DNA of 64,000 nucleotides from Lunularia cruciata. Taxonomy: Eukaryota; Streptophyta; Marchantiopsida; Lunulariales; Lunulariaceae. The notes beneath the pieces were generated by a model. It saw nothing but the letters and a program-made list of their open reading frames with translations. It was not told the DNA's origin and searched no databases. The position numbers and the translations under genes were made by a program. The DNA lies in the NCBI GenBank assembly GCA_948567375.1, contig OX419756.1:34300333-34364332 (forward strand), given 5' to 3'. Position 1 is the first letter of the stretch, and every line of letters begins with the position of its first letter. Positions 5,921 to 50,300 of this stretch are shown one piece after another.

Positions 5921-5971
5921 TGTTGATAGACTTTGAGATTGTGTTTATGACTCCACCAACCAGCAGGAAGG

Positions 5972-8900
5972 ATGGCAAGAAATTCGATGGTTTTTCGGCA
6001 GGTTCTTGTAGTAGCATTGTTCATCCACCAATTAGTTGCGAGTTTGGGAGCAGTGCAAGCTGTGGATCCCCCGTATACGGGAGGAGAAGCCGTTGAACTC
6101 GCCTACGGTGGAGGAGGGCCCGGAGCTGTGGAGTATGAAACCTCTGCATTGCTCAATTCAGAAACCATACTGCGCAGGAGGATCTTTGCAGAGAATATGG
6201 CTACTAGTTTAGAGTGGTTAGAAGCGCAGGCGCTCCAGGATTTCAAGCTCAAAATTGGTTATGATCCTCAAGGCGCGTTAACAGGCTGGAATTCGAAGGA
6301 TACCAATGCCTGTAGATGGCCGGGTGTGACGTGCTTCTCCGAAATACCTCGAGTTCAAGCCCTCAATTTATCTGGCCGCCAGTTAGTAGGCGTAATCTCT
6401 CCTCAACTGGCCGTCTTGGAATATCTGGAAACTCTCGATCTTTCTTACAACAACCTGTCTGGTACCATCCCTTCGTCAATAGGAAACCTTACTCACCTCT
6501 CAATTGTCCGCCTTGCTTCCAACCAACTGGTGGGAGACATGCCACAGGAGTTCGGGCAGCTCCACTTTCTGCAGGAACTTATTCTCGACGGCAACGACCT
6601 GACCGGCTCAATTCCTGGCTCTTTTGCAGGTCTGAACAGCATTAAAACACTTAGTTTGAACACCAACATGCTCACGGGTGAAATTCCAGTCCTTTTCGGT
6701 AACCTCTCCTCCTTGATGTACCTCGATCTCGCCGACAACCAGTTCAGTGGATTCATTCCTCCAGGGTTGGGAAAGTGTGTTAGTCTTGTACACCTGCTGC
6801 TTCAGTCCAACAATCTTGAGTCCTATGTTCCCTATGAACTTGGTCAGCTTAAGAACCTCCAACGGCTGAATCTTGCAGATAATGAACTCTCAGGAGCAAT
6901 TCCAGGCTCCATAGGCTTTCTGCAAGGACTTATTGAATTGGACTTAAGTGGAAATAAGTTTTCAGGAACCATTCCACCAACTTTAGGAAAATTATCTAAG
7001 CTCGAAGGGCTTTATCTCCAAGACAATAGTTTACTTGGTTACATTCCTGAAACATTTGGCTACCTGTCTCTGATTTCTGAGCTTCGTCTGTATGACAATA
7101 ACCTCACCGGTCCCATTCCACCGTCGATTGGCAACTGCTCGCAGTTGCAGTTGCTTTCTCTCCGTAACAACCGTCTTTCTGGGCCAATACCACCTTCTCT
7201 TTCTCTCCTCCGCGACCTGCAAGTTCTGGATCTCTCCGTCAATTCCTTCACAGGAGATATCCCAAATGATCTGGCCGAGCTGGAAAATCTCCAAGTTCTG
7301 GCTGCCACCAACAATTTTCTCGGTGGCTCAATCCCGGTATTTTTTAGCAAGTGGTCTAATCTGACTAGTCTGTCACTCAGTTCGAACAACTTTAGTGGGA
7401 AGATACCCCCGGAATTAGGAGGTCTGGAAAATCTCGAGGTTCTGCAGCTAAGCGGCAACCGGCTGAGCGGACCTATTCCAGTATCTCTCAGTAAGCTGTC
7501 CCTTCTGCAAATTCTGGAGATGGATGGCAACAAACTCAGTGGCCCACTTCCTGGTTGGATTGGCGAGTTCATCAAGCTCGAGGTTTTGGAGCTATCGGAA
7601 AATGGCTTCGAAGGAGATATTCCAAGCACACTGTTCGAGCTTCCCTTCTTGACGAGCGTGGGGCTGGCATCCAACAAGCTCAACGGCACCATCTCCCCAA
7701 ATTTCCAGAACTTACAAGCTCTGGAATACCTCAAACTTTGGAGCAATAATTTCACCGGCTCCATCCCAGCTTCTCTGGGAAATCTCCAACGCCTGATTCT
7801 TCTCGGCCTGCAGAACAACTCTCTAACCGGAGAGCTGCCAAGAAGCTTGGGAAATTGCACGGCCTTGCAATTTCTGCATGTGGATACGAATCAGCTGAAG
7901 GGTCCAATACCAGTGGAACTAGGGTCCCTCCGTAGTCTGGAGAAACTCAGCCTGGAGTCCAATCACCTCATTGGATTGATTCCACCATCTTTCGGCGACT
8001 GCCCCGAGCTGAGAAACTTGTCTTTGGGTTCCAATAATCTGACGGGTGAAATTCCCACTACGTTAGGAAAGCTGAACAATCTTCAGTTCCTCCTGCTGTC
8101 CAGCAACAACCTGAGTGGCAGCATTCCCCCGCAGCTTGGGGCCTGTTCATCCCTGACAGTGCTGGAACTCGCCTTCAATGAGCTTACTGGCACCATCCCT
8201 CTCGAGTTTCAGGCACTGGCTTCATTGACGACACTGCGGCTCGGTTTCAACCGCCTTTCCGGGCCCGTTCCCGCCTTCTTAAGCAGTCTGCCATTACTGA
8301 AAGAGCTCCACATGGTGGCAAACTCGTTAACTGGAGAAATCCCGGCGGAGTTGGGGAACCTGACGATGTTGGAGAAACTAACACTGGGGTTCAACAACCT
8401 AGAAGGTATTATTCCCCCGAGTTTGGGCAATTGTTCCAAATTGGCATTCTTGGAGCTCTCATTCAATAATCTCGTCGGTGAGATCCCACCGAGTCTTGGG
8501 AATCTGACGAGCTTAAGGCACTTGAGGTTATTTGGGAACAAATTAAGTGGCAGTTTCCCCATGAATATCACCAGATGGTCAAGACTCTCCTCTCTTCTCC
8601 TCGGCACCAACAACCTCACTGGACCTCTGCCTGAGAACATCGGGCAATTGACGGCTCTCGAGTACTTGACTGTAGATAACAACGATCTTTCTGGCTCTAT
8701 ACCCTCGAGCATCGGCAACTGTTCCAAACTTCTTTTTCTGAATCTATCGCGCAATTATTTTACCGGCTTGATTCCCGGCGAAATAGGCAGCATTGTGAAC
8801 CTCCAGGGAGTATTGGACCTGTCTCATAACAAGCTGGACGGGCCTATCCCTTCACCGATCGGTAACTTGAAAATGGTGAAATATCTTGATTTGTCATTCA

Positions 8901-10562
8901 ACAGGTTGAATGGTAGCATTCCTCCGGAGCTGGGAAGATGCGAAGAACTTGAATACCTCGACGTTTCTAGCAACAATCTCTCGGGTGACATTCCTGCAAC
9001 GCTAACGCTTCTTCCTAATCTGCGGTTCATGAACGTCTCCTTCAACAATTTGGAGGGGAGAATTCCGGACGGTGGAGTCTTCGGCAACTTTACTTCGTCC
9101 TCCTTCTTAGGCAACTCAAAGCTTTGTGGGTTGCCACTCACAAAACGGTGTAGACTTGCTCGAAGGGCCTGTTCGGGTTTTGGGTGCCCGGGAGTTTGGA
9201 TCTCAGTCACAGCGGGATTGACAGCCATAGCAGTCTTGGGAGCTGGAATTTTGGTCTGGTTTCTCTACGCTCGCCCGAGGCAGGATGCACCTCCGGGGCT
9301 GAGTCTCTTCGACCACGAGCTCCATATCACTGCTCAGGATCTTCTCAAAGCAACAGACGGGTTCAGCAACTACAACATTGTAGGCTACGGTGCTGGGAGC
9401 GTTGTCTACAAAGGGGTGCTGGAACCCGCAGACGGGTTAATGATCGCAGTGAAGAAGGTCGACCTTATGAATAATGTCATCTCTTTGAGGAGCCTGTACC
9501 GGGAGATGCAGATTTTGGGGAAGTTGAGACATAGAAATCTTCTGAGAGTGCTCGGATTTGTCTCGAACTTGGATATGAAAGCTTTGGTGTTGGAGTATAT
9601 GGCGAATGGAAGCTTACAGCACCAGCTGCATGAACGGGAGCCGTGCCCCTTGGACTGGGCCACCCGGTTGCAGATCTGCATTGATGTGGCCCAGGGCTTG
9701 GTTTACCTCCACCATGAGTCCAATGAACCCATCGTCCACCGGGATCTGAAGCCCAGCAACATTTTACTGGACGATGAGTTCGTGGCCAAAGTCAGTGACA
9801 TTGGGATTGCCAAAGTCTTCGTTCGTGATGCTGCTGGTGATGCTACCACGGCTATGCTTTCGGGAACGGCCGGGTACATTGCCCCTGGTAATTTTTCACT
9901 CACTTTCAGTTTCAGTAAATGTTTCCTTGTTTAGTTGTTCCTTGTTCGAGACTGATTGATTGCATCGCTGTGCAGAATATGCAACAGCTTCGAAATTCTC
10001 TACGAAGGGAGATGTCTACAGTTATGGAATTGTGCTGTTCGAGCTGTTCACGAAAAAAAGGCCGACAGAGTTCGGGTTTGGTGGCAGTCTGGTCGAGTGG
10101 GTGACAGATTCGTATCCTCAACACACTATGGAGATCATCGACCCGGATCTGTTGAATGCGTTCAAAACGCATGAGAATCAGATTCAAGGTCTGCTCCGAG
10201 TGGGCCTGCTGTGCACCAATGAGAGCCCCCAGGAGCGCCCGACCATGAAGGAAGTGTGGGAACTCCTCATGAAGATTAAACATCCCAAATTCTCCTGCAA
10301 AGCAACAAAGAAGGAAGGAACTAAGGAAACTCCACTCAATTCGGTGGAATGCTCAGAAGACAAAGACAAAGATAAAGAAACGACCTCCGAGACGAGGCCT
10401 CTCAATGGTGGGTTCACAAACACTCGATTGAAACTTTTTAATCCTTTCTTTTCACTTGTTGCAACATTCGAATTCGTATGTTGCAAAGAGACGTCTGATG
10501 GAATCGACTGTCTTGATTGTTATGTTGCAGATGTCATATCCTCAGAAGTTACAGATGATTGA
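5972..10562 (+). CDS. LRR receptor-like Ser/Thr kinase with 38 LRRs
   Basis: Single-pass plasma-membrane receptor kinase; the ligand is unknown. Exon 1 is 5972-9887, a GTAATT...GTGCAG intron is 9888-9975, and exon 2 is 9976-10562. The split falls within the Glu codon of the kinase APE motif (P-G|AA-Y). Spliced length is about 1500 residues. Visible in order: signal peptide (about 1-30), a Gly/Glu-rich linker to about 85, an LRRNT-type cap with a Trp/Cys motif (about 88-125), 38 consecutive 24-residue plant LRRs (from R127 to about 1040) with no island domain, a transmembrane helix (about 1074-1100), and a kinase from about 1135. Kinase landmarks are GYGAGSVVYKG, Lys1161 (IAVKK), HRDLKPSN (Asp1258) and an activation segment ending GTAGYIAP-EYA. 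The DFG motif reads DIG (1276-1278). Plant LRR kinases commonly carry about 20-28 LRRs, so the ectodomain is very long. The extreme C-terminus after about 10405 is uncertain, because a further small intron (10409 to about 10530) would keep the frame. Confidence 0.92.
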
Positions 10563-19214: not shown

Positions 19215-22045
19215 AAAGTTTGAGAGGAGAGGAGTCCCAAAAGTTTGGCAAGATATATCTCACTGCATACATGCCCAAACATTATGACTCTGGTCTTGTA
19301 AGAAGCGCCTTGCCAAGAACTTTCCATAGCTACCAAGATTGCATCGTTCTTAGCTTTCTCAAAAAGTTATGACCGATTGAAATTTCTGACAGAGGATCAA
19401 GATTTGGGAATCTGAATTTTCATCATATGGTGTCCAAATGGAGTGATTTTTTTGGCACTGGATGTGCCTTGAGAAGCTCTTTTAATTGATGTTATGCATG
19501 CTTGAACATCACATCCACACACAAAGTTATGCGTTTGAGCTCAAACTTCAACACATTGTAACTTTTTGGTTTCATGTCCAAATGGTTCAATCTTAAGCTC
19601 ATTGGGAACACCTATGAGAGAACTTTCTTTTGAATACCTGTTTGCTGAATTTGGAGTTCTGTGGTGCAACTTTTTAGTTTCATCAACTGTGATCTTGTGC
19701 GCTTGGTGGTGCTCAAATCTACAACTTTTAGAGGATGGAACTTTGGACTCACACCTTTAAATGAGGTGATCTTGGTCTCATTAGAAGCATCATATCAAGA
19801 GCTATTGATTGAAACTATCTTCATATAATTTGAAGCTTTTTGCTTGAAGGTATAAGAATTTGAATTTTGTGACTCAATAAGGTTTAGAAGTTAAGCATAG
19901 AAAACTCTAGAGGCCATAACTCAATATCTATTTGCTCAAATGAGTTTATTTTTAGTTCGTTTGAAAGAGGTTCTCAAGAGCTTTTGATTGAGAGCCCACT
20001 TGTAGATTTTGAATTATTGAGGCCAAGGTTTTGAATTTTCAAAATCTATAGAATTTCAAAAATCTCATGTAGAAAAGTGCAAATTCAAAAGTTTATGACT
20101 TTTGATTTACAAGTCCAGATGAGTAGATTTTTTGTTCATTAGAACAAATATTTGTAGAGCTGTTAGTGGATATGGATTCATGAAAAGTTGCATTCTGTTA
20201 AAAAAAAACCATAGGAACTTGAAATCTGTAAAATTCTTTAAAATTTTGCAAACTAAAATTCAAAGAGTTCTCTCAAAATTCATAGAGCTTGAGTGAAGTA
20301 GAGGATATATTCTCATAGTAGCACTTTGGAGCTTCTAGAATGGAAGCTTCTAAGATGGTGCAAGAGATTGTTGATATAACTTCAAAACAACAACTTATTG
20401 AAATGTATAGAAAAACAAATAACTTCCACAAGGAACTCAAGAGCTTTTTTGCTCGTATGTCTCAATGCATGAACACTCTTATGGCAGATTTGGAAACCGT
20501 AAAATAAAATGTCATGATTGTAAAAGAATCTCTGAATTCAATCACCCTAAATATCCAAGAACTCAAGAAGAGCAGTAGTTTGATATTAGACTCCACAAAG
20601 GGTATGGTCGATGCTACTAAGAAGGTTGCTTCCTTGGGAGCACAAGCAACCAACATTGCTTCACAAAATGGAGGGCTGCAAGACATGGTTGAGAGATTAG
20701 AGGTCAAGATGAAGTCATATGCTGAAACTACTAAGGTGGCTCAAATCTCTTACTTACAAGAGCATGAGGTTGAAAAGGAGAACCAACTGTTGAGAATGAA
20801 GAACTTGAGAACTTCAAGTTTACCAGAGATAGAGAAGGAAGACACCAAGGCTATAGTGTGTGATTTTATTGCTGTTTCTTCAAGAGCCCATCCTTAAATT
20901 GTGCAAGCATATAGATTGGGATAGAAAGGTGCACAACCAAGAAGCATTTTGGGTGAGGTTTGGCTCAAAAACTTAGAGGAATTCAGTGATGGAAAACAAG
21001 GCTATATTGAAGGGGTGCGCATTTGGTTGGACCCAAATCTCATATCTCTCCAATGGCAAGCAAAGAAGTGAGACTTAGCAAAAGTGAAGGAGGCTCAACA
21101 AGCAGGTTTTGTTGCATTCTTGAGAGATAATAGAGCTCTAATTATTCAAAATAATTTTCAACAACTACATAACAATTCCAAACCCTTAGAGTGCTATCTC
21201 GGAATGTTTATGGCCTCACACAAACCAAGTACTCCAGGGCTAAGCCTTTGTGGGATGATGCTAACCTGATCAATCTTGTGGAGATATGGGGACATGAAGG
21301 AAACACCATTCAAGACATTGAAGGTTTCACTCTTGTTGGTTTAGCTTGGAACAAGCGGAGGCAACACAGAGGCAAGGGCTTTGGAGGCATTGCTATCTAC
21401 GTCAGATTTGGCTTTGGAAAATCAATCTCTTTGATTGGCCAAGATTCAAGTGGAAAATACCAATGGTTGAGGATTGGAGGAGTTGCTAAACCTTGCTTCC
21501 TTATTGTTTGTTACTTTGCTCCATTGACATCACCAATCTATTCAAGTGGAGCGCTCAATACCATGCAGCCTTTCCACTCCTTGACAAGGGATGTGTTGGA
21601 GTTTCAAAGTAAAGGTGTACTTGTGTTTTAAGTTTGAGAGGATTCAAAAGTTTAAGAGGAGAGGAGTCCCAAAAGTTTGCCCAGCCATATCTTCACTATT
21701 TTTCAGATCAAGTTTTGGATCAAGCTTTAGTACTTTGGACCACCTATTAGTACTCCATGTTTTGTGGTAGAAATATAAGAGTGTTGGGAGGGCTCTCTTT
21801 GTTGCATTTATTGATTTCAGGAAGGCCTTTGATAAGGAGCTTAGGAAATCTCTAAGTGAGGGACTCACTAAAGTTGATGTTTCAGTTGATCTGCTTGGTG
21901 CTATCTCCAGACTCTATGAGAAAGTGGTTGTGAGACTTTCATCTTTGAGCTCTCAAGATGTCCTTAATACAATGGGTGTGATTCAAGGTTTCTCTCTATC
22001 TCCAACTGTGATTGGAATCTTCATCTACGATCTAGAGAAAGGAGA
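19215..22045 (+). mobile_element. LINE copy with 5' leader, ORF1, ORF2 start and RT piece
   Basis: The leader starts at the motif GTTTGAGAGGAGAGGAGTCC (about 19218) and runs to about 20340. ORF1 remnants span 20341-21169 (coiled coil and RRM, with stops and frameshifts). ORF1 ends in TAA at 21170-21172 followed by CAA TTC, then ORF2 endonuclease runs to about 21630. A ~60-bp leader-start fragment (21632-21695) and an RT fragment (about 21700-22040, including VAFIDFRKAFDK) follow. A mosaic, dead copy. Confidence 0.85.
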
Positions 22046-25818: not shown

Positions 25819-25938
25819 TGGCAAGCAAAGAAGGGAGAATTAGCAAAAGTGAAGGAGGCTCAACAAGCAGGTTTTGTTGCATTCTTGAGAGATAATATAG
25901 TTGTGATTACTCAAAAGAAATTGTCAACTATTGCATAG

Positions 25939-27096
25939 CAATTCCAGACCCTTAGAGTGCGGTTTTGGAATGTTCATGGGCTCACACATACCAAGTACTC
26001 TAGCGCTAAGCCTTTGTGGGATGATGCTGATTTGATCAATCTTGTGGAGACATGGGAACATGAAGGAAACACCATTCAAGATATTGAAGGATTCACTCTT
26101 GTTGGTTCAACCTGGAACAAGCGGAGACAACACAAAGGAAGGGGCTTTGGAGGTATTGCTACTTACGTCAGATTTGGCTTTGAGAAATCAGTCTCTTTGA
26201 TAGGTCAAGATTCAAGTGGACAATACCAATGGTTGAGGATTGGAGGAGTTGCCACACCTTGCTTCATTGCTGTTTGTTACTTTGCCCCATTGATATCACC
26301 AATCTATTCAAGTGGAGTTCTCAACACCATGCAGCCTTTCCACTCCTTGACAAAGGATGTGTTAGAGTTTCAAAGTAAAGGTTCAATACTTGTTCTTGGT
26401 GATTTCAATGCTAGGATCCAAGCCTCTCAGATCCTTGACTTGAGTGACCTTGAGAATGATCCTTTCCACAACTTGATAGACCATTCCAGTGCTTGGTCAT
26501 GCTCTTCTAAAGATCCTATGTCCAACCCCATGAGTGAGCACTTTTTGAGCTTTGGTGCCAATTGTAGCTTGAAGATCTTGAATGGCCTTTCCCAATTTCC
26601 AAAAACTTGTAAAAGCACATGCTTTGCCTTTGGTGGATCAAGCACCATAGATTATATGCTCACTTCAGCTAATGATATCTATCTTGTCTCATATTTTGCT
26701 ATTCTAGATCCTCAACCAGAATCTGACCATGCACCTTTATCTTGTACCATCCTTCTTCCTTGCCTCAATAGAACCACATTACCTATTGACCATACCTTTA
26801 GATTGAAAATTCGTCTAGATTTTCACAAGAGAGACTTTTACCAACAAGCTATCCAAGAGAAATTGAGTTCTATGGAGTGGAGTTTTGATTTCAACAACGT
26901 AGTGATCAATTGGCTGAACTTCTTCAATCAACATCAACTTCTTTGTTTCCAAGAGGCTCTCACAAGAAGAGACTTGGTCTTCCTTGCAATAGGTGATATG
27001 ATGCTGATTGCAAAATGGCAAGGATCAAAGCTATGGATAGGTCTCTTGATCAGATTGCACAAAATCAGGCCATTGTTTCGTATAGAAAGTTTATGA
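25939..27096 (+). pseudogene. LINE ORF2 endonuclease part
   Basis: It directly follows TAG 25936-25938 in the ORF1 frame. The APE endonuclease motifs are present: WNVHG, ETWE, GDFNAR, IDYML and SDHAP. The first true Met (NTMQPF) comes about 125 codons in, after the WNVHG and ETWE motifs. The frame ends at 27096 after a shift near 27000. Confidence 0.85.
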
Positions 27097-29000: not shown

Positions 29001-31058
29001 AACAATGAAATATAAAGCCCGAAAGACCCAAAGAGTCAAAAGGCTAGAAACACAATACAAAACACATGAAATGTGAGCCTAGGCATGGGCCTACGGCATC
29101 TGACCAATCTGTAACAAATTGGGTAGATGTAAAGTAACCTCGGTCATGTACTTCTCTAACGCTAAAGCTTCAACCTGTAAGAGAGTTGAGAAGTCACTAC
29201 AAGTAATCTGATGTCTAACTCTAATCTGCATATAACAAGGGCAATCAACAAACACATGATGCTCATCCTCAACTTTGCTCATAATACACAATTTGCAAAG
29301 TCGCATGGAGTGCTCTATCTGCTGCCAACGTCCATGTTCTACTTCTAGTCTATGAGAACTAGTTCTATATTGAGCGATAACATGTCTAAGTGAAATAGAA
29401 ATCCTAGCCAAGAGATAATCTTTCTCACAATACACCAACATAGGATTTACAAACTGCTGATAGAACACCATCTTGGTACTGGGTTACTGCCATAATCGAA
29501 GTAAGAACTGCTCCTTGATCACCTCTCGAAGTGCAATAGGCTCCAATCTCCAATGTCGCTCACAAATATTCCACCTTGTGGCCCATGCAATCAGATCCGT
29601 ATACCAACCAATAGATAGAGTGGCACAAAAAGCTTGGTAGGGAAGTCTCTCATGCTCCATGGACCTCACCTTAGTGGCATATGTGGCACAAAAAACTCAC
29701 CAAGAACAAAGCTTCAGCCTCAAGAGGCAAAAACCCAGTTTCAGCAAGCAACAATACATAAGGAGTTTGAGTCCTCACTCCAAGTTCATCACACAAAAAC
29801 AGTTTCTGAATTTTCTCCACCTTTTGCCACCATGTCTTCTTAGTACCTGGACCCCAAATCTGAGTACCATAGAGAACCACCGGCTGCACAAGAGATCTGA
29901 ACAACACCTTCTTCAACTCCCATGTGGTAAGATGAGCAAGTCTAGAGCAATTCATGAGCGAATACAAAGCTCTAAAGCATGCATTGATTCTCATCTTCAC
30001 ACAAGTAGACCAACTATAGTCATGAGAAAACTCAAGGCCCAAGTACTTATAAGAAGAAACCTGCTCCAATTGCAGTCCATCAAAAAAGAAAGGTGTGACA
30101 CCTTTAGAACCCACCACAATGACCTTGGACTTGTCAAGGTTCACCTCCATCTTTGTTTGATTGCAAAAGCAAAGTAGAGAATCCAACATCTTTTGTAAAC
30201 TCTGTGGATTTGTGGAGAGAAGCACTACATCATCTGCATAAAGGAGTGCATGTATCATCAAAGAGCCAAAATCTAAAATCTGAGACAATGTGTATATCAC
30301 TAAAACAACAAAATCTGAGACAATGTGTATATCACTGGGTAAGGTGAGCATATAATCTACAGTGCTGGATCCACCAGAAGCAAAGCATGTGCTCTTCCAA
30401 GTTTCTGGAAATTGAGAAAGGCCATTCAAGATCTTCAAGCTACAATTGGTACCAAAGCGAAAAAAGTGCTCACTCATGGAGTTGGATATGAGATCTTTGG
30501 AAGAGCGGGACCAAGCACTAGAATGATCTATCAAGCTATGGAAAGGGTCATTCTCAAGGTCACTAAACTCAGGAATCTGAGAGGTTTGGATCCTAGCATT
30601 GAAATCACCAAGAATAAGTACTGCACCTTTACTTTGAAATTCCAACACATCCTTTGTCAAGGAGTGGAAAGGCTGCATTGTGTTGAGAGATCCGCTTGAA
30701 TAGATTGGTGATGTCAATGGGGCAAAGTAACAAACAGCAAGGAAGCAACTCCTCCAATCCTCAGCCATTGGTATTGTCCACTTGAGTCTTGGCCTATCAA
30801 AGAGACTGATTTTTCAAAACCAAATCTGACGTAAGTAGTAATACCTCCAAAGCCCCTTCCTCTGTGCTGCCTCCGCTTGTTCCAAGTTGAACCAACAAGA
30901 ATGAAACCTTCAATGTCTTGAATGGTGTTTCCTTCATGTTCCCATGTCTCCACAAGATTGATCAGATCAGCATCTTCCCACACAAGTTTAGCGCTTGAGT
31001 ACTTGGTATGTGTGAGACCATGAACATTCCAAAACAACACTCTAAGGGTCTGGAATTG

Positions 31059-31898
31059 CTATGCGGTAGTTGACAATTTCCTTTGGGTGATCACAGCTCT
31101 ATTGTCTCTCAAGAATGCAACAAAACCTACTTGTTGAGCCTCCTTCACCTTTTCTAATTCTCCCTTCTTTGCTTGCCATTGGAGAGATGTGAGATCAGGA
31201 TCCAACCAGATACGCCGCCCCTTCAGTATAGCCTTGTTTGCCATCACTGAATTCCTCTGAGTTTTTGAGCCAAACCTCACCAAAATGCTTCTTGGTTGTG
31301 CACCTTGTTGTCCCAATCTATATGCTTGCAAAATCTGAGGACCATGGACTCTCAAAGAATCAGTAAGAAACTCACACACTATGGCCTTGGTGTCTTCCTT
31401 CTCAATCTCTGGCAAACCAGAAATCCTCAAGTTCTTCAATTTGACTTGTTGGTTCTCCTTCTCAACCTCATGCTCTTGCAAGTAAGAGATTTGAGTCACC
31501 TTAGTAGCTTCAGCATATGACCTCATCTTCACTTCTAATGTGTCCACAATCTGTTGGAGCCCTCCGCTTTGTGTAGCAATGTCACTGGCTTGTGTTCCCA
31601 AGGAAACAACTTTCTTGGTAGCATCAACCATCCCCTTGGTTGATGTTAACAGCGAGATAGTATTCTTCTTCAGGTCTTGAATATCTTGGATGACTAGGTT
31701 CAAGGACTCTTTTACACTACTAATCTCGACCTTTACAATTTCCATATCAGTCATGAGAGTACTCATGCACTGGGACATAGGTGTAAAGAAGCTTCTAAGC
31801 TCTTTGTGAAAATCATTAGATTTCCTATATTTTTCTGCTAATTGTTGTTGCTTCAAGGCTATATCAGCAATATCTTTCACCATCTGGGACTCCTCCAT
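31059..31898 (-). CDS. LINE ORF1 protein, intact, 279 residues
   Basis: ATG at 31898 (MEESQMVKDIADIALKQQ), stop TAG at 31061-31059. Residues about 1-150 are heptad-rich and lack prolines over long stretches (coiled coil, trimerisation expected). An RRM-like core begins at LKNLRISGLPEIEKEDTKA (about 163), and a C-terminal domain contains QAYRLGQQGAQPRSILVRFG and RRIWLDPDLTSLQW. This order (coiled coil, RRM, CTD) is that of vertebrate-type L1 ORF1p (Transposase_22); there is no CCHC knuckle. ORF1p is an RNA-binding chaperone of the LINE ribonucleoprotein. It is the only uninterrupted ORF1 in the window. Confidence 0.9.
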   Translation of the reverse strand: MEESQMVKDIADIALKQQQLAEKYRKSNDFHKELRSFFTPMSQCMSTLMTDMEIVKVEISSVKESLNLVIQDIQDLKKNTISLLTSTKGMVDATKKVVSLGTQASDIATQSGGLQQIVDTLEVKMRSYAEATKVTQISYLQEHEVEKENQQVKLKNLRISGLPEIEKEDTKAIVCEFLTDSLRVHGPQILQAYRLGQQGAQPRSILVRFGSKTQRNSVMANKAILKGRRIWLDPDLTSLQWQAKKGELEKVKEAQQVGFVAFLRDNRAVITQRKLSTTA

Positions 31899-35143: not shown

Positions 35144-36652
35144 AAAGAAGGGAGAATTAGGAAAAGTGAAGGAGACTCAACAAGCAGGTTTTATTGCACT
35201 CTTGAGAGACAATAGAACTATGATCACCCAAAGGAAGTTGTCAACTGCCACATAGCAATTCTAGACCCTTAGAGTGTTGTTTTGGAATGTTCATGGTCTC
35301 ACACATACCAAGTATGCCAACGCTAAATGTGTGTGGGATGATGTTGATCTGATTTGATCAATCTTGTGTAGACATGGGAACATGAAGGAAATTCCATTCA
35401 AGACATTGAAGGATTCACTCTTGTTGGTTCAACCTGGAACAAGCAAAGGCAACACAAAGGAATGGGCTTTGGAGGTATTGCTGCTTATGTAAGATTTGGC
35501 TTTGAAAAATCAGTCTCTTTGAAAGGCCAAGATTCAAGTGGACAATACCAATGGTTGAGGATTGGAGCAGTTGCTACACTTTGCTTCCTTGCTGTTTGTT
35601 ACTTTGCTCCATCAATATCACCAATCTATTCAAGTGGAGCTCTTAACACCATGCAACCTTTCCACTCCTTGACAAAGGATGTGTTGGAATTTTAAAGTTA
35701 AGGTGCAGTATTTGTTCTTGGTGATCTCAATGTTAGAATCCAAGCTTCTCAAATTCTTGAGTTTAGTGACCCTAAGAATAACCCTTTCCATAGCTTTATA
35801 GATCATTCTATTGCTTGGTCTTTCTCTTCCAAAGATCTCATATCCAATTCCATGAGTGAGCACTTTTTGAACTTTGGTACCAATTGTAGCTTGAAGATTT
35901 TGAATGACCTTTCTCAATTTCCAAAAACTTGTAAGAGCACATGCTTTGCTTCAGGTGGATCAAGCACTATAGATTATATGCTCACCTCACCCAATGGTAT
36001 ACACTTTATCTCGGATTTTGTTGTTTTAGATCCTCAACCTTAATTTGACCATGCACCTCTATCTTGTGCCATCCTTCTTTCTTGTCTCAATAGAGCCACA
36101 TTACTTATTGACCATGCCTTTAGAAGGAAAATCAGTCTGGATTTTCACAAGCAAGACATGTACCAACAAGCTATCCATGAGAAATTGAGCTCTATGGAGT
36201 GGAGTTTGATTTTCAACAACGTAGTGATCAGTTGGTTGAACTTCTTCAATCTACATCTACTACTTTATTTCCAATTGGTTTTCACTAGAAGAGACTTGGT
36301 CTCCCTTGCAAAAGGTGATATGATGCTGATTGCAAAATGGCGAGGATCAAAGCTATGGATAGGTCTCTTGATCAGATTACACAAAATCAGGCTTTTGTTT
36401 CTTATAGAAAGTTGGTGAAGTGCAAGAAGCAAGCATTTTTGAGACTCAAGGGGGTTGAGTTGAGCATTGAATTGAGGAGCAATCCCAAGGCTTTCTGGAA
36501 AAGGTAACCATCAGATCTACATCTCCATTTCTGGACCTGAATGAGCTTTGTGACTATGTGAAGGATCAATACTTTTTCCCCGATGCTCCAAGCATATCAC
36601 CTTGCCTTGGATCTGCTCTCACTATCTTTGAAGCTGATGTCAAGTACCAATT
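35144..36652 (+). mobile_element. LINE copy from the ORF1 end to pre-RT, 3' truncated
   Basis: It starts in the last ~35 codons of ORF1 (KKGELGKVKETQQAGF). TAG at 35253-35255 is followed by CAA TTC in frame with ORF2, but a second TAG follows two codons on. The endonuclease and linker run to about 36650 with scattered stops, then the sequence switches to a minus-strand leader fragment. Confidence 0.85.
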
Positions 36653-41415: not shown

Positions 41416-42163
41416 ATGGAGGAGTCCAAGATGGTGAAAGACATTGCTGATATAGCCATGAAGCAACAAAAATTAGCTGAAATGTATAGGAAAGCAGATG
41501 ATTTCCACAAGGACCTTAGATGCTTCATGGCACCTATGTCCCAGTGCATGAGTACTCTCATGACTGATATGGAATTTGTAAAGGTTGTGATTAGTAGTGT
41601 CAAAGAGTCTTTGAACCTAGTCAACCAAGAGATTCAAGATCTCAAGAAGAGTTCTATCTCTCTGTTAACATCAACCAAGGTGATGGTTGATGCTACCGAG
41701 AAAGTTGCTTCCTTGGGAGCACAAGCCAACGATATTGCTACACAAGGCAGAGGGCTCCAACAGATTGTGGACACATTAGAAGTGAAGATACTTGAGAATT
41801 TTAGGTTTGCCAGCGACTGAGAAGGAAGACACCAAGGCCATAGTGTGTGATTTTATTGCTGATTCTTTGAGAGTCCATGATCCTCAGATTTTGCAAGCAT
41901 ATAGATTGGGACAACAAGGTGCACAACCAAGAAGCATTTTGGTGAGGTTTGGCTCACAAACTCAAAGGAATGCAGTGATGGATAACAAGGCTATACTGAA
42001 GGGGCGGCATATTTGGTTGGACCTTGATCTCACACCTCTCCAATGGCAAGCAAAGAAGGGAGAATTAGCAAAGGTGAAGGAGGCTCAACAAGCAGGTTTT
42101 GTTGCATTCTTGAGAGACAATAGAGCTGTGATCACCCAAAGGAAATTGTCAACTACCGCATAG
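41416..42163 (+). pseudogene. LINE ORF1 with internal deletion
   Basis: The coiled-coil half runs to VDTLEVK; about 90 bp are then missing and the frame shifts near 41790. The RRM-CTD half (RILGLPATEKEDTKA … QAYRLGQQG) continues in a second frame to TAG 42161-42163. Confidence 0.85.
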
Positions 42164-43229
42164 CAATTCCAGACCCTTAGAGTGTTGTTTTGGAATGTTC
42201 ATGGTCTCACACATACCAAGTACTCAAGCGCTAAACCTGTGTGGGAAGATGTTGATCTGATCAATCTTGTGGAGACATGGGAACATGAAGGAAACACCAT
42301 TCAAGACATTAAAGGTTTCATTCTTGTTGGTTCAACTTGGAACAAGCGGAGGCAGCACAGAGGAAGGGGCATTGGAGGTATTGCTACTTACGTCAGATTT
42401 GGTTTTGAAAAATCAGTCTCTTTGATAGACCAAGACTCAAGTGGACAATACCAATGGCTGAGGATTGGAGGAGTTGCTACACCTTGCTTCCTTGCTGTTT
42501 GTTACTTTGCTCCATTGACATCACCAATCTATTCAAGCGGATCTCTCAACACCATGCAGCCTTTCCACTCCTTGACAAAGGGTGTGTTGGAATTTCAAAG
42601 TAAAAGGTGCAGTACTTATTCTTGGTGATTTCAATGCTAGGATCCAAACTTCTCAGATTCTTGAGTTTAGTGACCTTGAGAATGACTCTTTCCATAGCTT
42701 GATAGATCCTTCTAGTGCTTGGTCCCGCTCTTCCAAAGATCTCATATCCAACTCCATGAGTGAGCACTTTTTGAGCTTTGGTACCAATTGTAGCTTGAAG
42801 ATCTTGAATGACCTTTCTCAATTTCCAGAAACTTGTTAGAGCACATGCTTTGCTTCTGGTGGATCCAGCACTGTAGATTATATGCTCACCTCACCCAGTG
42901 ATATACACATTGTCTCAGATTTTGTTGTTTTAGATCCTCAACTTGAATCTGACCATGTACCTTTATCTTGGATAGTATCTTTGCCAAGTTGTACGGTCGA
43001 ATTTTGTAGTCTAGGTTGAGTACTTGGGCTGAAAAGCACAGAATTTGAGCTTAATGCCAAGCGGGTTTCAGATCAGGCTTTAGTACTTTGGATCATCTAT
43101 TGGTACTCCATGTTTTGAGGTGGAAATCCAAAGGTGTTGGGAGAGCTCTCTATGTTGCATTTATTGATTTCAGGAAGGCTTTTGATAAGGTGCTTAGGAA
43201 ATTGCTAAGTGAGAGACTCACTCAAGTTG

Positions 43230-44520: not shown

Positions 44521-45303
44521 CTTGCTGAAATGTATAGAAAAGCAAATGACTTCCACAAGGAACTCAAGACCTTTTTTGCCCCCATGTCTCAATGCATGAA
44601 CACTCTTATGGCAGATTTGCAAACCGTAAGAGCTGATGTCTTGATTGTGAAAGAATCTCTCAATTCAATCACCGTAGATATCCAAGAACTCAAGAAGAGT
44701 AGCATTTTGATGTTAGATTCCACCAAGGGTATGGTGGATGCTACAGAGAAGGTTGCTTCCTTGGGAGCGCAAGCCACCAACATTGCTTCAAAAAATGGAG
44801 GGCTGCAAGAGATGGTTGACACATTAGAGGTCAAGATGAAGTCATATGCCAAAGCTACGAAGGTGGCTCAAATCTCTTACTTGCAAGAGCATGAGGTTGA
44901 GAAGGAGAACCAGTTGGTCAGAATGAAGAACTTGAGGATTTCAAGTTTGCCAGAGACTGAGAAGGAAGACACCAAGGCCATAGTGTGTGAGTTTATTGTT
45001 GATTCTTTGAGAGTCCATGATCCTCAGATTTTGCAAGCATATAGATTGGGACAACAAGGTGCACAACCAAGAAGCATTTTGGTGAGGTTTGGCTCAGAAA
45101 CTCAAAGGAATGCAGTGATGGGGAACAAAGCTATACTAAAGGGGCGGCGTATCTGGTTGGACCCTGATCTCACACTTCTCCAATGGCAAGCAAAGAAGGG
45201 AGAATTAGCAAAGGTGAAGGAGGCTCAACAAGCAGGTTTTGTTGCATTCTTGAGAGATAATAGAGCTGTGATTACTCAAAAGAAATTGCCAGCTATTGCA
45301 TAG
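44521..45303 (+). pseudogene. LINE ORF1, 5' deleted but otherwise open
   Basis: It is open from the leader junction through LAEMYRKANDFHKELKTFFA to the TAG at 45301-45303. Coiled coil, RRM core (RMKNLRISSLPETEKEDTKA) and C-terminal domain are all present; only the first ~20 codons with the ATG are lost to a deletion. Confidence 0.85.
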
Positions 45304-46401
45304 CAATTCCAGACCCTTAGAGTGTTGTTTTGGAATGTTCATGGTCTCACACATACCAAGTACTCCAGCGCTAAGCCTTTATGGGATGATGCTGATCTGA
45401 TCAATCTTGTGGAGACATGGGAACATGAAGGAAACACCATTCAAGACATTGAAGGATTCACTCTTGTTGGTTCAACCTGGAACAAGCGAAGACAATACAA
45501 AGGAAGGGACTTTGGAGGTATTGCTACTTACGTTAGATTTGGCTTTGAGAAATCAGTCTCTTTGATAGGTCAAGACTCAAGTGGACAATACCAATGGCTG
45601 AGGATTGGAGGAGTTGCTACACCTTGCTTCATTGCTGTTTGTTACTTTGCCCCATTGACATCACCAATCTATTCAAGTGGACTTCTCAACACCATGCAGC
45701 CTTTCCACTCATTGACAAAGGATGTGTTAGAGTTTCAAAGTAAAGGTGCAGTACTTGTTCTTGGTGATTTCAATGCTAGGATCCAAGCCTCTCAGATCCC
45801 TGACTTGAGTGACCTTGAGAATGATCCTTTCCACAGCTTGATAGACCATTCCAGTGCTTGGTCATGCTCTTCCAAAGATCCTATGCCCAACTCCATGAGT
45901 GAGCACTTTTTGAGCTTTGGTGCCAATTGTAGCTTGAAGATCTTGAATGGCCTTTCTCAATTTCCAAAAACTTGTAAAAGCACATGCTTTGCCTTTGGTG
46001 GATCAAGCACCATAGATTATATGCTCACTTCAGCTAATGATATCCATCTTGTCTCATATTTTGCTGTTTTAGATCCTCAACCAGAATCAGACCATGCACC
46101 TTTGTCTTGTCTCCTTCTTCCTTGCCTCAATAGAACCACATTACCTATTGACCATGCCTTTAGAGGAAAACTTAGTCTAGATTTTCACAAGAGAGACTTT
46201 TACCAACAAGCTATCCAAGAGGAATTGAGTTCTATGGAGTGGAGTTCTGATTTTCAACAATGTAGTGATCAATTGGTTGAACTTCTTCAATCTACATCAA
46301 CTTCTTTATTTCCAAGAGGCTCCCACAGGAAGAGACTTGGTCTTCCTTGCAATAGGTGGTATGATGTATTGCAAAATGGCAAGGAACAAAGCTATGGATA
46401 A
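45304..46401 (+). pseudogene. LINE ORF2 endonuclease, best-preserved plus copy
   Basis: It follows the ORF1 TAG with no intervening base and in the same frame, reading QFQTLRVLFWNVHG. The APE endonuclease residues in WNVHG, ETWE, GDFNAR, IDYML and SDHAP are all intact. There is no ATG before NTMQPF. The frame is lost after LPCNRWYDVLQ near 46370. Confidence 0.87.
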
Positions 46402-46802: not shown

Positions 46803-47053
46803 CAATCAATCAAACAATGAAACAATGAAACAATGAAATATAAAGCCCGAAAGACCCAAAGAGTCAAAAGGCTGGAAACACAATACAAAACACATGAAAT
46901 GTGAGCCTAGGCAAGGGCCTAGGGCATCTGACTAATCTGTAACAAATTGGTCCAATGTAAACTAACCTTGGTCATGTACTTCCCTAACGCTAAAGCTTCA
47001 ACTTGTAAGAGAGTTGAGAAATCACTACAAGTAATCTGATGTCTAACTCTAAT
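46803..47053 (-). mobile_element. Short LINE 3' end inserted in LINE ORF2
   Basis: Minus strand: tail of three TTTCATTG units (about 46803-46830), 3' UTR with hairpin (about 46908-46925), and the last ~40 codons of ORF2. At 47053 it abuts plus-strand ORF1 sequence of the next copy. Confidence 0.85.
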
Positions 47054-47370
47054 GTGAGTTTATTGCTGATTCTTTGAGAGTCCATGATCCTCAGATTTTG
47101 CAAGCATATAGATAGGGACAACAAGGTGCACAACCAAGAAGCATTTTGGTGAGGTTTGGCTCAGAAACTCAAAGGAATGCAGTGATGGGGAACAAAGCTA
47201 TACTAAAGGGGCGGCGTATCTAGTTGGACCCTGATCTCACACCTCTCCAATGGCAAGCAAAGAAGGGAGAATTAGCAAAAGTGAAGGAGGCTCAACAAGC
47301 AGGTTTTGTTGCATTCTTGAGAGATAATAGAGCTGTGATTACTCAAAAGAAATTATCAGCTACTGCATAG

Positions 47371-50300
47371 CAATTCCAGACCTTTAGAGTACTGTTTTGG
47401 AATGTTCATGGTCTCACACATACCAAGTACTCCAGCGCTAAGCCTTTGTGGGATGATGCTGATCTGATCAATCTTGTGGAGACATGGGAACATGAAGGAA
47501 ACACCATTCAAGACATTGAAGGATTCACTCTTGTTGGTTCAACCTGGAACAAGCGGAGACAACACAAAGGAAGGGGCTTTGGAGGTATTGCTACTTACGT
47601 CAGATTTGGCTTTGAGAAATCAGTCTCTTTGATAGGTCAAGATTCAAGTGGACAATACCAATGGCTGAGGATTGGAGGAGTTGCCACACCTTGCTTCATT
47701 GCTGTTTGTTACTTTGCCCCGTTGACATCACCAATCTATTCAAGTGGACTTCTCAACACCATGCAGCCTTTCCATTCCTTGACGAAGGATGTGTTAGAGT
47801 TTCAAAGTAAAGGTGCAGTCCTTGTTCTTGGTGATTTCAATGCTAGGATCCGAGCCTCTCAGATCCCTGACTTGAGCGACCTTGAGAATGATCCTTTCCA
47901 CAGCTTGATAGACCATTCTAGTGCTTGGTCACGCTCTTCCAAAGATCCTATGTCCAATTCCATGAGTGAGTACTTTTTGAGCTTTGGTGCCAATTGTAGC
48001 TTGAAGATCTTGAATGGCCTTTCTCAATTTCCAGAAACTTGTAAAAGCACATGCTCTGCCTGAGGTGGATCAAGCACCATAGATTATATGCTCACTTCAG
48101 CTAATGATATCCATCTTGTCTCAGATTTTGCTATTTTAGATCCTCAACCAGAATCAGACCATGCACCTCTATCCTGTACCATCCTTCTTCCTTGCCTCAA
48201 TAGAACCACATTAGCTATAAACCATGCTTTTAGAGGCAAACTTCGTCTAGATTTTCACAAGAGAGACTTGTACCAACAAGCTATCCAAGAGAAATTGAGT
48301 TCTATGGAGTGGAGTTCTGATTTTCAATAACGTAGTGATCAATTGATTGAACTTCTTCAATCTACATCAACTTCTTTGTTTCCAAGAGGTTCCCACAGGA
48401 AGAGACTTGGTCTCCCTTGCAATAGGTGGTATGATGCTGATTGCAAAATGGCAAGGATCAAAGCTATGGATAGATCTCTTGATCAGATTGCACAAAATCA
48501 AGCCTTTGTTTCATACAGAAAGTTGGTGAAGTGCAAAAAGCGGGCATTTCTGAGACTCAAAGGAGTTGAGTTGAGCACTGAATTGAGGAGCAATCCCAAG
48601 GCTTTCTAGAAGAAGGTAACCATCAGATCTCCATCTCCAACGCTGGACCTGAATGAGCTTTGTGACTATGTGAAGGATTTGTACTTTTTCCCAAATGCTC
48701 CAAGCATGGCACCTTGCCTTGGATCTGCTCTCACCATCTCTGAAGCTGATGTCAAGTACCAATTGAAGAAGTTGGCCTATGGTAAGGCTGAAGACCTTGA
48801 TGGACTATGTGTTGAACTTCTGAAGTGGGGTGGTAGCCAACTGATTTCAGTACTCACTTCATTTGAATGAGGCAATCAAGTATGGCTTTCCGGATAGATG
48901 GTGCTTCAAGAAGGTAGTTCCTATTCACAAGTCTGGCCAGAGAGATATTGTCACCAATTACCGTACCATACTTGTTGGTAGTGTCTTTGCCAAGTTGTAT
49001 GGTCGAATTTTGGAGTCAAGGTTGAGCATTTGGGCTGAAAAGCACAAAATTCGAGCTAAGTGCCAAGCTGGTTTCAGATTAGGCTTTAGTAGTTTGGACC
49101 ACCTATTGGTACTTCATGTTTTGTGGTGGAAATCCAAAGGTGTTGGGAGAGCTCTCTATGTTGCCTTTATTGATTTCAGGAAGGCCTTTGATAAGGTACT
49201 GAGGAAATCTCTAAGTGAGAGACTCATTGAAGTGGGTGTTTCAGCTGATCTGATTGGTCCTATCTCTAGACTCTATGAGAAAGTGATTGTAAAACTTTCA
49301 CCTTTGAGCTCTCAAGATGTCCTTAGCACAATGGGTGTGATCCAAGGCTGCTCTCTATCTCCAACTCTGTTCCGAATCTTCATCAATGATCTAGAGAGTC
49401 TACTCATGGAAGCCGGAGCTATAGGTGTACAGGTTGGCTCTTTGATGATACATGCACTCCTTTATGCAGATGATGTAGTGCTTCTCTCCACAAATCCACA
49501 GAGTTTACAGAAGCTGTTAGATTCTCTACTTTGCTTTTGCAATCAAACAAAGATGGAGGTGAACCTTGACAAGTCCAAGGTGATTGTGGTAGGTTCTAAA
49601 GGTGTCACACCTTTCTTTTTTGATGGACAGCAATTGGAGCAGGTTTCTTCTTATAAGTACTTGGGCCTTGAGTTTTCTCATGACTATAGTTGGTTCACTT
49701 GTGTGAAGATGAGAATCAATGCAGGCTTTAGAGCTTTGTATTCACTCATGAACCGCTCTAGACTTGCCCACCTTACCACATGGGAGTTGAAGAAGTTGTT
49801 GTTCAGATCTCTTGTGCAGCCGGTGGTTCTCTATGGTGCTCAGATTTGGGGTCTTGGTACTAAGAAGACATGGTGGCAAAAGGTGGAGAAAGTTCAGAAA
49901 TTGTTTTTGTGTGATGAACTTGGGGTGAGGACTCAAACTCCCTATGTATTGATGCTTGCTGAAACCGGGTTTTTACCTCTTGAGGCTGAAGCTTTGTTTT
50001 TAGCTATCACATATGCCACTAAGGTGAGGTCCATGGAGCATGAGAGACTTCCCTACCAAGCTTTTTGTGCCACTCTATCTATCGGTTGGTATACAGATCT
50101 GGTTGCATGGGCCACAAGGTGGAATGTTTGTGAGCGACATTGGAGGTTGGAGCCTATTGCACTATGAGAAGTGATCAAGGAGCAGTTCTTACTTTGCTTA
50201 TGGCAGCAGCCCGGTACCAAGATGGTGTTCTATCAGCAGTTTGTAAATCCTATGTTAGTGTATTGTGAGCAAGATTATCTATTGGCTAGGATTTCTACTT

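Follow-up and report, generated by a model that had tools for sequence, protein, structure and literature searches.

In the liverwort Lunularia cruciata, a family of LINE retrotransposons carries its two open reading frames in one and the same frame, separated by a single UAG codon in the context UAG CAA UUC, and the best explanation of this arrangement is that ORF2 is probably made as an ORF1-ORF2 fusion by readthrough of the UAG that ends ORF1. Such a mechanism would explain at once the shared frame 0, the lack of a spacer, the lack of an AUG, the retention of the stop and its UAG CAA UUC context. The family was encountered in a stretch of 64,000 nucleotides (C2:34300333-34364332), hereafter the window, in which translation of the junctions places ORF2 (QFQTLRVLFWNVHG...) directly after the stop, in the frame of ORF1 and with no spacer, as an earlier note on this DNA had described.

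A pattern scan of the window returned exactly seven matches to TARCAATTC, all of them at ORF1/ORF2 junctions; shuffled sequence yields 1.83 matches on average and 5 at most. The scan agrees with the earlier note on all seven positions, six with TAG and one, at 21170, with TAA, each followed by CAA TTC (Table 1).

Table 1 Junctions and open reading frames of the LINE copies in the window (window coordinates).
Feature	Position	Strand	Basis or remark
ORF1/ORF2 junction, TAG CAA TTC	45301..45309	+	Pattern scan; copy at which the earlier note places its finding
ORF1 of the 45301 copy	44530..45300	+	257 codons open from Met to TAG; upstream part altered
ORF2 of the 45301 copy	45304..46401	+	Frame open for 365 codons (APE-type endonuclease) and broken beyond them; codon 131 is the first ATG
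Junction TAA CAA TTC, older copy	21170..21178	+	Pattern scan
Junction TAG CAA TTC	25936..25944	+	Pattern scan
ORF2, N-terminal part	25939..27096	+	385 codons open; Pfam PF03372 endonuclease, E 3.6e-11
Junction TAG CAA TTC	31053..31061	-	Pattern scan
Complete ORF1	31062..31898	-	279 codons; fold predicted on a close relative, the ORF1 of L026
Junction TAG CAA TTC	35253..35261	+	Second TAG two codons on (CAG in other copies)
Junction TAG CAA TTC	42161..42169	+	Pattern scan
Junction TAG CAA TTC	47368..47376	+	Pattern scan
ORF2, reverse transcriptase part	48845..50167	+	Pfam PF00078, E 2e-27; ends in TGA

The copies in the window are broken: the full 279-codon ORF1 is found only in the 31061 copy, and no ORF2 is whole, the longest being open for 385 codons. 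In the 21170 copy a gap of one base interrupts ORF1 immediately upstream of the TAA, and the second TAG that follows the 35253 junction marks that copy as dead. Since related copies share a recent ancestor, the seven window copies alone are weak evidence, and it is the genome-wide counts and the selection test that carry the weight. Two reverse transcriptase (RT) copies in the window have an in-frame TGA, at 50165 and 52043, in place of the CGA found in both intact ORF2s used for comparison, which is ordinary CpG-type decay. Beside the LINE-rich stretch, positions 5951-9934 hold a long open frame that resembles, by eye, a leucine-rich-repeat receptor kinase.

The genome surveyed comprises 566 Mb in 74 contigs, about 558 Mb of it in eight large contigs of 60-85 Mb. 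A search with the stop codon left free and the flanks kept exact (GCANNNCAATTCCAGACCYTTAGAGT) gave 373 exact matches, 362 of them with TAG and 11 with another codon; the 100 matches listed include 97 with TAG and one each with TAA, AAG and TAT. A consensus without the stop, named beforehand as a possible refutation, was not found, nor was an ORF2 in another frame, ORF2 following directly after the stop in the junctions read. The best 89 ORF2 copies by similarity to the ORF2 relative P0012, chosen with no condition on the stop, formed a second sample. Of these, 84 were read, and 83 have TAG CAA TTC (14 junctions of the loci L009-L028, that of L029 and 68 more), the other one (L037) being without the junction; 53 of the best 89 have an ORF2 with all 1077 codons open. 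A fused ORF1-ORF2 was found neither among these 89 copies, whose longest open frame is 1111 codons where a fusion needs at least 1357, nor among the best 119 copies by similarity to the Riccia ORF1 (P0011), where no frame exceeds 319 codons. Among the best candidates scored, the genome matches to P0012 and P0011 look like one family. The loci L009-L028 were mostly picked by a TAG-bearing pattern and are thus biased; only the 14 junctions that they share with the 89-copy sample were counted.

How far the stop stands out from its surroundings was judged on aligned junctions, with the L021 junction, known from the exact-match search, outside the limits of one junction alignment and L029 and L037 outside the alignment of 102 copies. 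The 100 full junctions of the latter, two of its 102 rows including the TAA copy at 21170 being left out, reduce to 24 distinct haplotypes, so that close relatives and tandem duplicates make the raw counts overstate independence. Across these haplotypes TAG varies in none, while codons -2, 5, 7 and 8 vary in 11-14; in the vicinity of the junction, however, there are further codons that are constant in all 24, and the invariance of TAG is consequently not exceptional by itself. The segment GCA TAG CAA TTC CAG ACC shows no fixed difference between subfamilies, and by our estimate it holds too few synonymous sites for its conservation to reach significance. An old junction in L028, at about 5007 and 81% identical, keeps TAG CAA TTC, and the LINE sequence is lost soon after it. 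ORF2 has a terminator of its own, TAG GCC CTT in all seven copies shown; because ORF2 ends in TAG, TAG is a stop here, and only the stop of ORF1 has the CAA UUC context. A genome-wide use of TAG as a sense codon was rejected for this reason.

Intact elements exist outside the window. Among 34 junction copies checked for open ORFs (those of the window and of L009-L028), ORF1 (279 codons) and ORF2 (1077 codons) are both open in five, namely L010, L013, L017 minus, L020 and L026, and all five carry TAG CAA TTC. These form two subfamilies, L010, L013, L020 and L026 versus L017 minus, which are 88.7% identical over 1.7 kb and 91.6% over 4.2 kb; as intact TAG copies occur in each, both subfamilies appear to have multiplied with the stop in place. 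Decay of single copies was rejected as the origin of the stop, which is common to the two subfamilies.

With L026 as the reference, three of the six copies compared align unbroken from about -1880 to +3340 around the ORF1 stop, which gives an element of about 5.2 kb. Seven copies have roughly 95 bases after ORF2 in common and then diverge within short CATTGTTT-like repeats. Long terminal repeats were not found, there being no direct repeat of at least 40 bases over L026:1600-7000, an interval that covers the whole element in this one copy. The 1077-residue ORF2 protein matches PF03372 at residues 10-264 (E 7.1e-12) and PF00078 at residues 519-769 (E 1.7e-28), and the matches of its RT among solved structures include R2 proteins and 8c8j; a structure model of its endonuclease, with a mean pLDDT of 28.8, was discarded. 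The AlphaFold2 model of ORF1 (mean pLDDT 75.9, pTM 0.39) consists of long helices followed by small mixed helix-and-strand domains, and its ten best matches in Foldseek are all human L1 ORF1p or domains of it, with E values down to 9.7e-8. A search of solved structures with the ORF1 sequence gave only chance matches and no L1 ORF1p. ORF1 is thus predicted, from its model, to be an L1-type ORF1p with coiled coil, RRM and CTD, and the element is described here as a LINE whose ORF1 is of the L1 type, without assignment to the L1 clade.

The first in-frame ATG of ORF2 lies inside the endonuclease and is the one in NTMQPF, as previously noted, but where the frame is open this is codon 131 and not about codon 125. 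An AUG near the start of ORF2, likewise looked for as a refutation, is present within codons 1-10 in only one of 102 copies, the old and broken L028, and apart from that copy no AUG overlaps or lies near the ORF1 stop. The selection test, made on one pair of intact copies, L026 and L017 minus, gave dN/dS values of 0.21 for ORF1, 0.14 for ORF2 codons 1-130 and 0.13 for codons 131-1077. Codons 1-130 contain 15 synonymous and 8 nonsynonymous changes, as against about 52 of the latter expected if neutral (Fisher p 7e-6), and the changes are distributed over the three codon positions as 6, 2 and 15. This segment thus behaves as one translated in this frame, which speaks strongly against a start at codon 131; because it is under selection and holds no AUG, translation of ORF2 must enter at or close to the stop and make no use of an AUG.

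These data bear directly on the alternatives. It could be argued that ORF2 starts at codon 131, which is after all its first in-frame AUG, as an RT with a cut endonuclease, the in-frame stretch upstream being a relic. We regard this as extremely improbable: purifying selection constrains the stretch as it does the remainder of ORF2, and the endonuclease domain matched in Pfam extends across codon 131, so that nearly half of it would be lost. The start at codon 131 was rejected on the purifying selection before it. Nor does it seem at all likely that the stop is a shared defect, with the family dead or its ORF2 protein supplied in trans by a stop-free partner. The broken state of the window copies and the TAG shared by 362 of the 373 exact-flank junctions would agree with such a defect, but 53 of the best 89 ORF2 copies keep all 1077 codons open, intact copies with TAG are found in each of the two subfamilies, which differ by about 8-11%, and no fused copy occurs among the best 89 ORF2 and best 119 ORF1 matches scored.

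A free ORF2 protein could also arise if ribosomes reinitiated after termination, or initiated internally, at a CTG, TTG or GTG shortly beyond the stop (ORF2 codons 7-8). This non-AUG route deserves more weight, and we still consider it unlikely. A near-cognate codon is present within ORF2 codons 1-10 in 94 of the 102 copies. A precedent is found in the LINE of Kojima et al. 2005, which is reportedly SART1. Termination-reinitiation at an overlapping stop-restart site is described for that LINE, and has been proposed for L1, in a review (PMC5972666) that also describes non-AUG restart as tolerated in caliciviruses. Against this, eight of the 102 copies, of the GTA CTA type, have no near-cognate codon within codons 1-10; four of them share a second change at -13, and three (L041, L067 and L068) keep 1077 open codons, a weak hint that one lineage proliferated while lacking any codon of this kind. 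The argument is a weak one because the change from CTG to CTA is likely a recurrent, methylation-type one. Furthermore, reinitiation requires neither frame 0 nor a plant-virus context, and, were translation to begin at codon 8, the conserved WN pair would be preceded by two residues, counting the initiating one.

Readthrough of the ORF1 stop, the mechanism that we favor, would proceed as follows. Most ribosomes would stop at the UAG, in its context UAG CAA UUC, and produce ORF1p, and a minority would read through it to produce an ORF1p-EN-RT fusion. As the predicted fold of ORF1 is like that of the L1 ORF1p trimer subunit, the fusion could co-assemble with ORF1p, in the manner of Gag and Gag-Pol. 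The type I readthrough signal of plant viruses is given in PMC3542737 as UAG CAR YYA and as being stimulated by the six bases after the stop. UAG CAA UUC agrees with it at five of these six bases, the sixth being C and not A, so that the earlier statement of a difference at the last position only is correct; the chance of six random bases agreeing with CAR YYN is 1 in 128 at equal base use. The junction would accordingly work like a type I signal, to judge by its bases, without being filed as a member of the class, the last base of CAR YYA being mismatched. A search limited to local pairing found no stable RNA structure downstream (z +0.90, -1.27, +0.12, -1.04, -0.28 and +0.55). For a structure of type II/III about 8 nt downstream, local pairing likewise gave no z below -1.3 and no support from covariation; in the fold of the junction alignment the covariation term is unfavorable, and 3 of 56 pairs have changed on both sides, each in one sequence. 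The lack of local structure in these searches fits the type I class, which is stimulated by the six bases after the stop.

Relatives of ORF1 at 40-61% identity were found in named species, Marchantia polymorpha (P0004-P0010) and Riccia sorocarpa (P0011). In eight of the eleven relatives (P0001-P0003 and, from Marchantia, P0004-P0008) the end of ORF1 falls on one shared point of the alignment; of the other three, the Riccia protein stops a residue before that point, P0009 is truncated and P0010 departs from the pattern. A protein search with the full-length ORF2 found five relatives with identities of 28-35%, along with six weaker ones; an ORF2 from a named liverwort was not among them. In two ORF2 relatives the initial M corresponds to ORF2 position 9 in one and 7 in the other; a gene finder may have called GTG or TTG as the start, or these may be real ATGs. 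No relatives of ORF1 were confirmed in viral contigs.

The copies are concentrated at particular places in the genome. Of the best 89 ORF2 copies, 75 lie on the eight large contigs, and 74 of these 75 fall in one block per contig, with blocks spanning 0.16-0.56 Mb on all eight and a single exception, on C8 at 1.23 Mb. The blocks of C1 and C2 lie at 46.3-46.5 Mb and 33.2-34.7 Mb, and among the GCANNNCAATTCCAGACCYTTAGAGT matches listed, 36 of 38 on C1 fall at 46.1-47.5 Mb and all 54 on C2 at 33.18-34.74 Mb. A pattern of one block per contig is centromere-like, and the blocks may be centromeres; a tandem-repeat scan of the fetched loci found no long satellite array, the repeats there having two to three copies only. 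Over C1 46280215-46389803, junctions on one strand recur at spacings of 10,598, 5,976 and 5,915 bases, every one of which occurs three times or more, and these fixed spacings indicate that LINE-containing units have been turned into tandem arrays. In L037 (C8:39424340-39424600) ORF2 codon 8 directly abuts the 3' tail of another copy, and in the window inverted 3' ends adjoin ORF1 pieces at about 46817-47056; the two arrangements suggest self-insertion or twin priming. A broader scenario, in which liverwort LINEs make their RT by programmed UAG readthrough as a Gag-Pol-like ORF1p-EN-RT, have kept this mode since the split from Marchantia and have colonized centromere-like blocks, and in which this would be the first such LINE known, is one to which we give slightly less than an even chance.

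Stop readthrough is known from plant viruses and retroviruses; for LINEs, our limited search, with most subscription papers outside its scope, found no printed case, which agrees with the earlier remark that readthrough is not standard for plant LINEs. Nor is a LINE with stop readthrough described in the portions available of PMC5009743, PMC5972666, PMC1965478, PMC2861651, PMC2657916, PMC5478143, PMC7175516, PMC3510499, PMC2734521 and PMC8310308. The way in which LINEs translate their second ORF has long been in question, and for those with non-overlapping ORFs the mechanism was unknown as of 2007, according to PMC1965478. A LINE in which an in-frame UAG is the likeliest route to ORF2 makes this question testable by a short reporter. 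If the proposal is true, the ORF1:ORF2 stoichiometry of a LINE would be tied to a known recoding signal, in convergence with retroviruses and plant viruses.

Among LTR elements, stop suppression occurs in the plant element SIRE1. Tca2, from Candida albicans, has a stop between its structural and polymerase ORFs, but is a Copia-type LTR element with a purine-rich and pseudoknot context, and a reporter of its gag/pol stop gave no evidence of readthrough (PMC7175516). A layout with a stop between two ORFs is thus no proof of readthrough on its own, and the Tca2 reporter slightly lowered our confidence in readthrough here. In the type I readthrough of tobamoviruses, benyviruses and pomoviruses, as described in PMC3542737 and PMC5382211, UAG, CAA and two pyrimidines are found as in the liverwort LINE, and the extension adds a part to the protein; that signal belongs to plant RNA viruses, whereas here it would belong to a cellular LINE, with C as the sixth base. 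The gammaretroviral murine leukemia virus likewise has Gag, an in-frame UAG and a Pol that includes reverse transcriptase (PMC3542737, PMC5009743 and PMC8310308). Unlike that virus, the liverwort element is a non-LTR element with an APE endonuclease, and no stable structure was found downstream of its stop in the search for local pairing.

Among LINEs, a family flanks the centromeres of Marchantia polymorpha, according to PMC12885004. Marchantia relatives of ORF1 exist, and the Lunularia family clusters once per large contig; the likeness to the Marchantia centromere LINE is one of description only and does not imply that the two are the same family. The LINE of Kojima et al. 2005 also couples translation of ORF2 to the ORF1 stop, but there the stop and restart signals overlap and a structure lies downstream of them (PMC5972666). 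Zorro3 of Candida albicans is a two-ORF, L1-like LINE as well; unlike the liverwort element it has an inter-ORF region and needs the first ATG of ORF2, as stated in PMC1965478. Mammalian L1 resembles the liverwort LINE in that the ORF1 of the latter models as the human L1 ORF1p trimer subunit and that ORF2 has an endonuclease and an RT, whereas L1 has, by the account in PMC5972666, a 63-nt spacer and an ORF2 AUG, and the liverwort LINE has neither.
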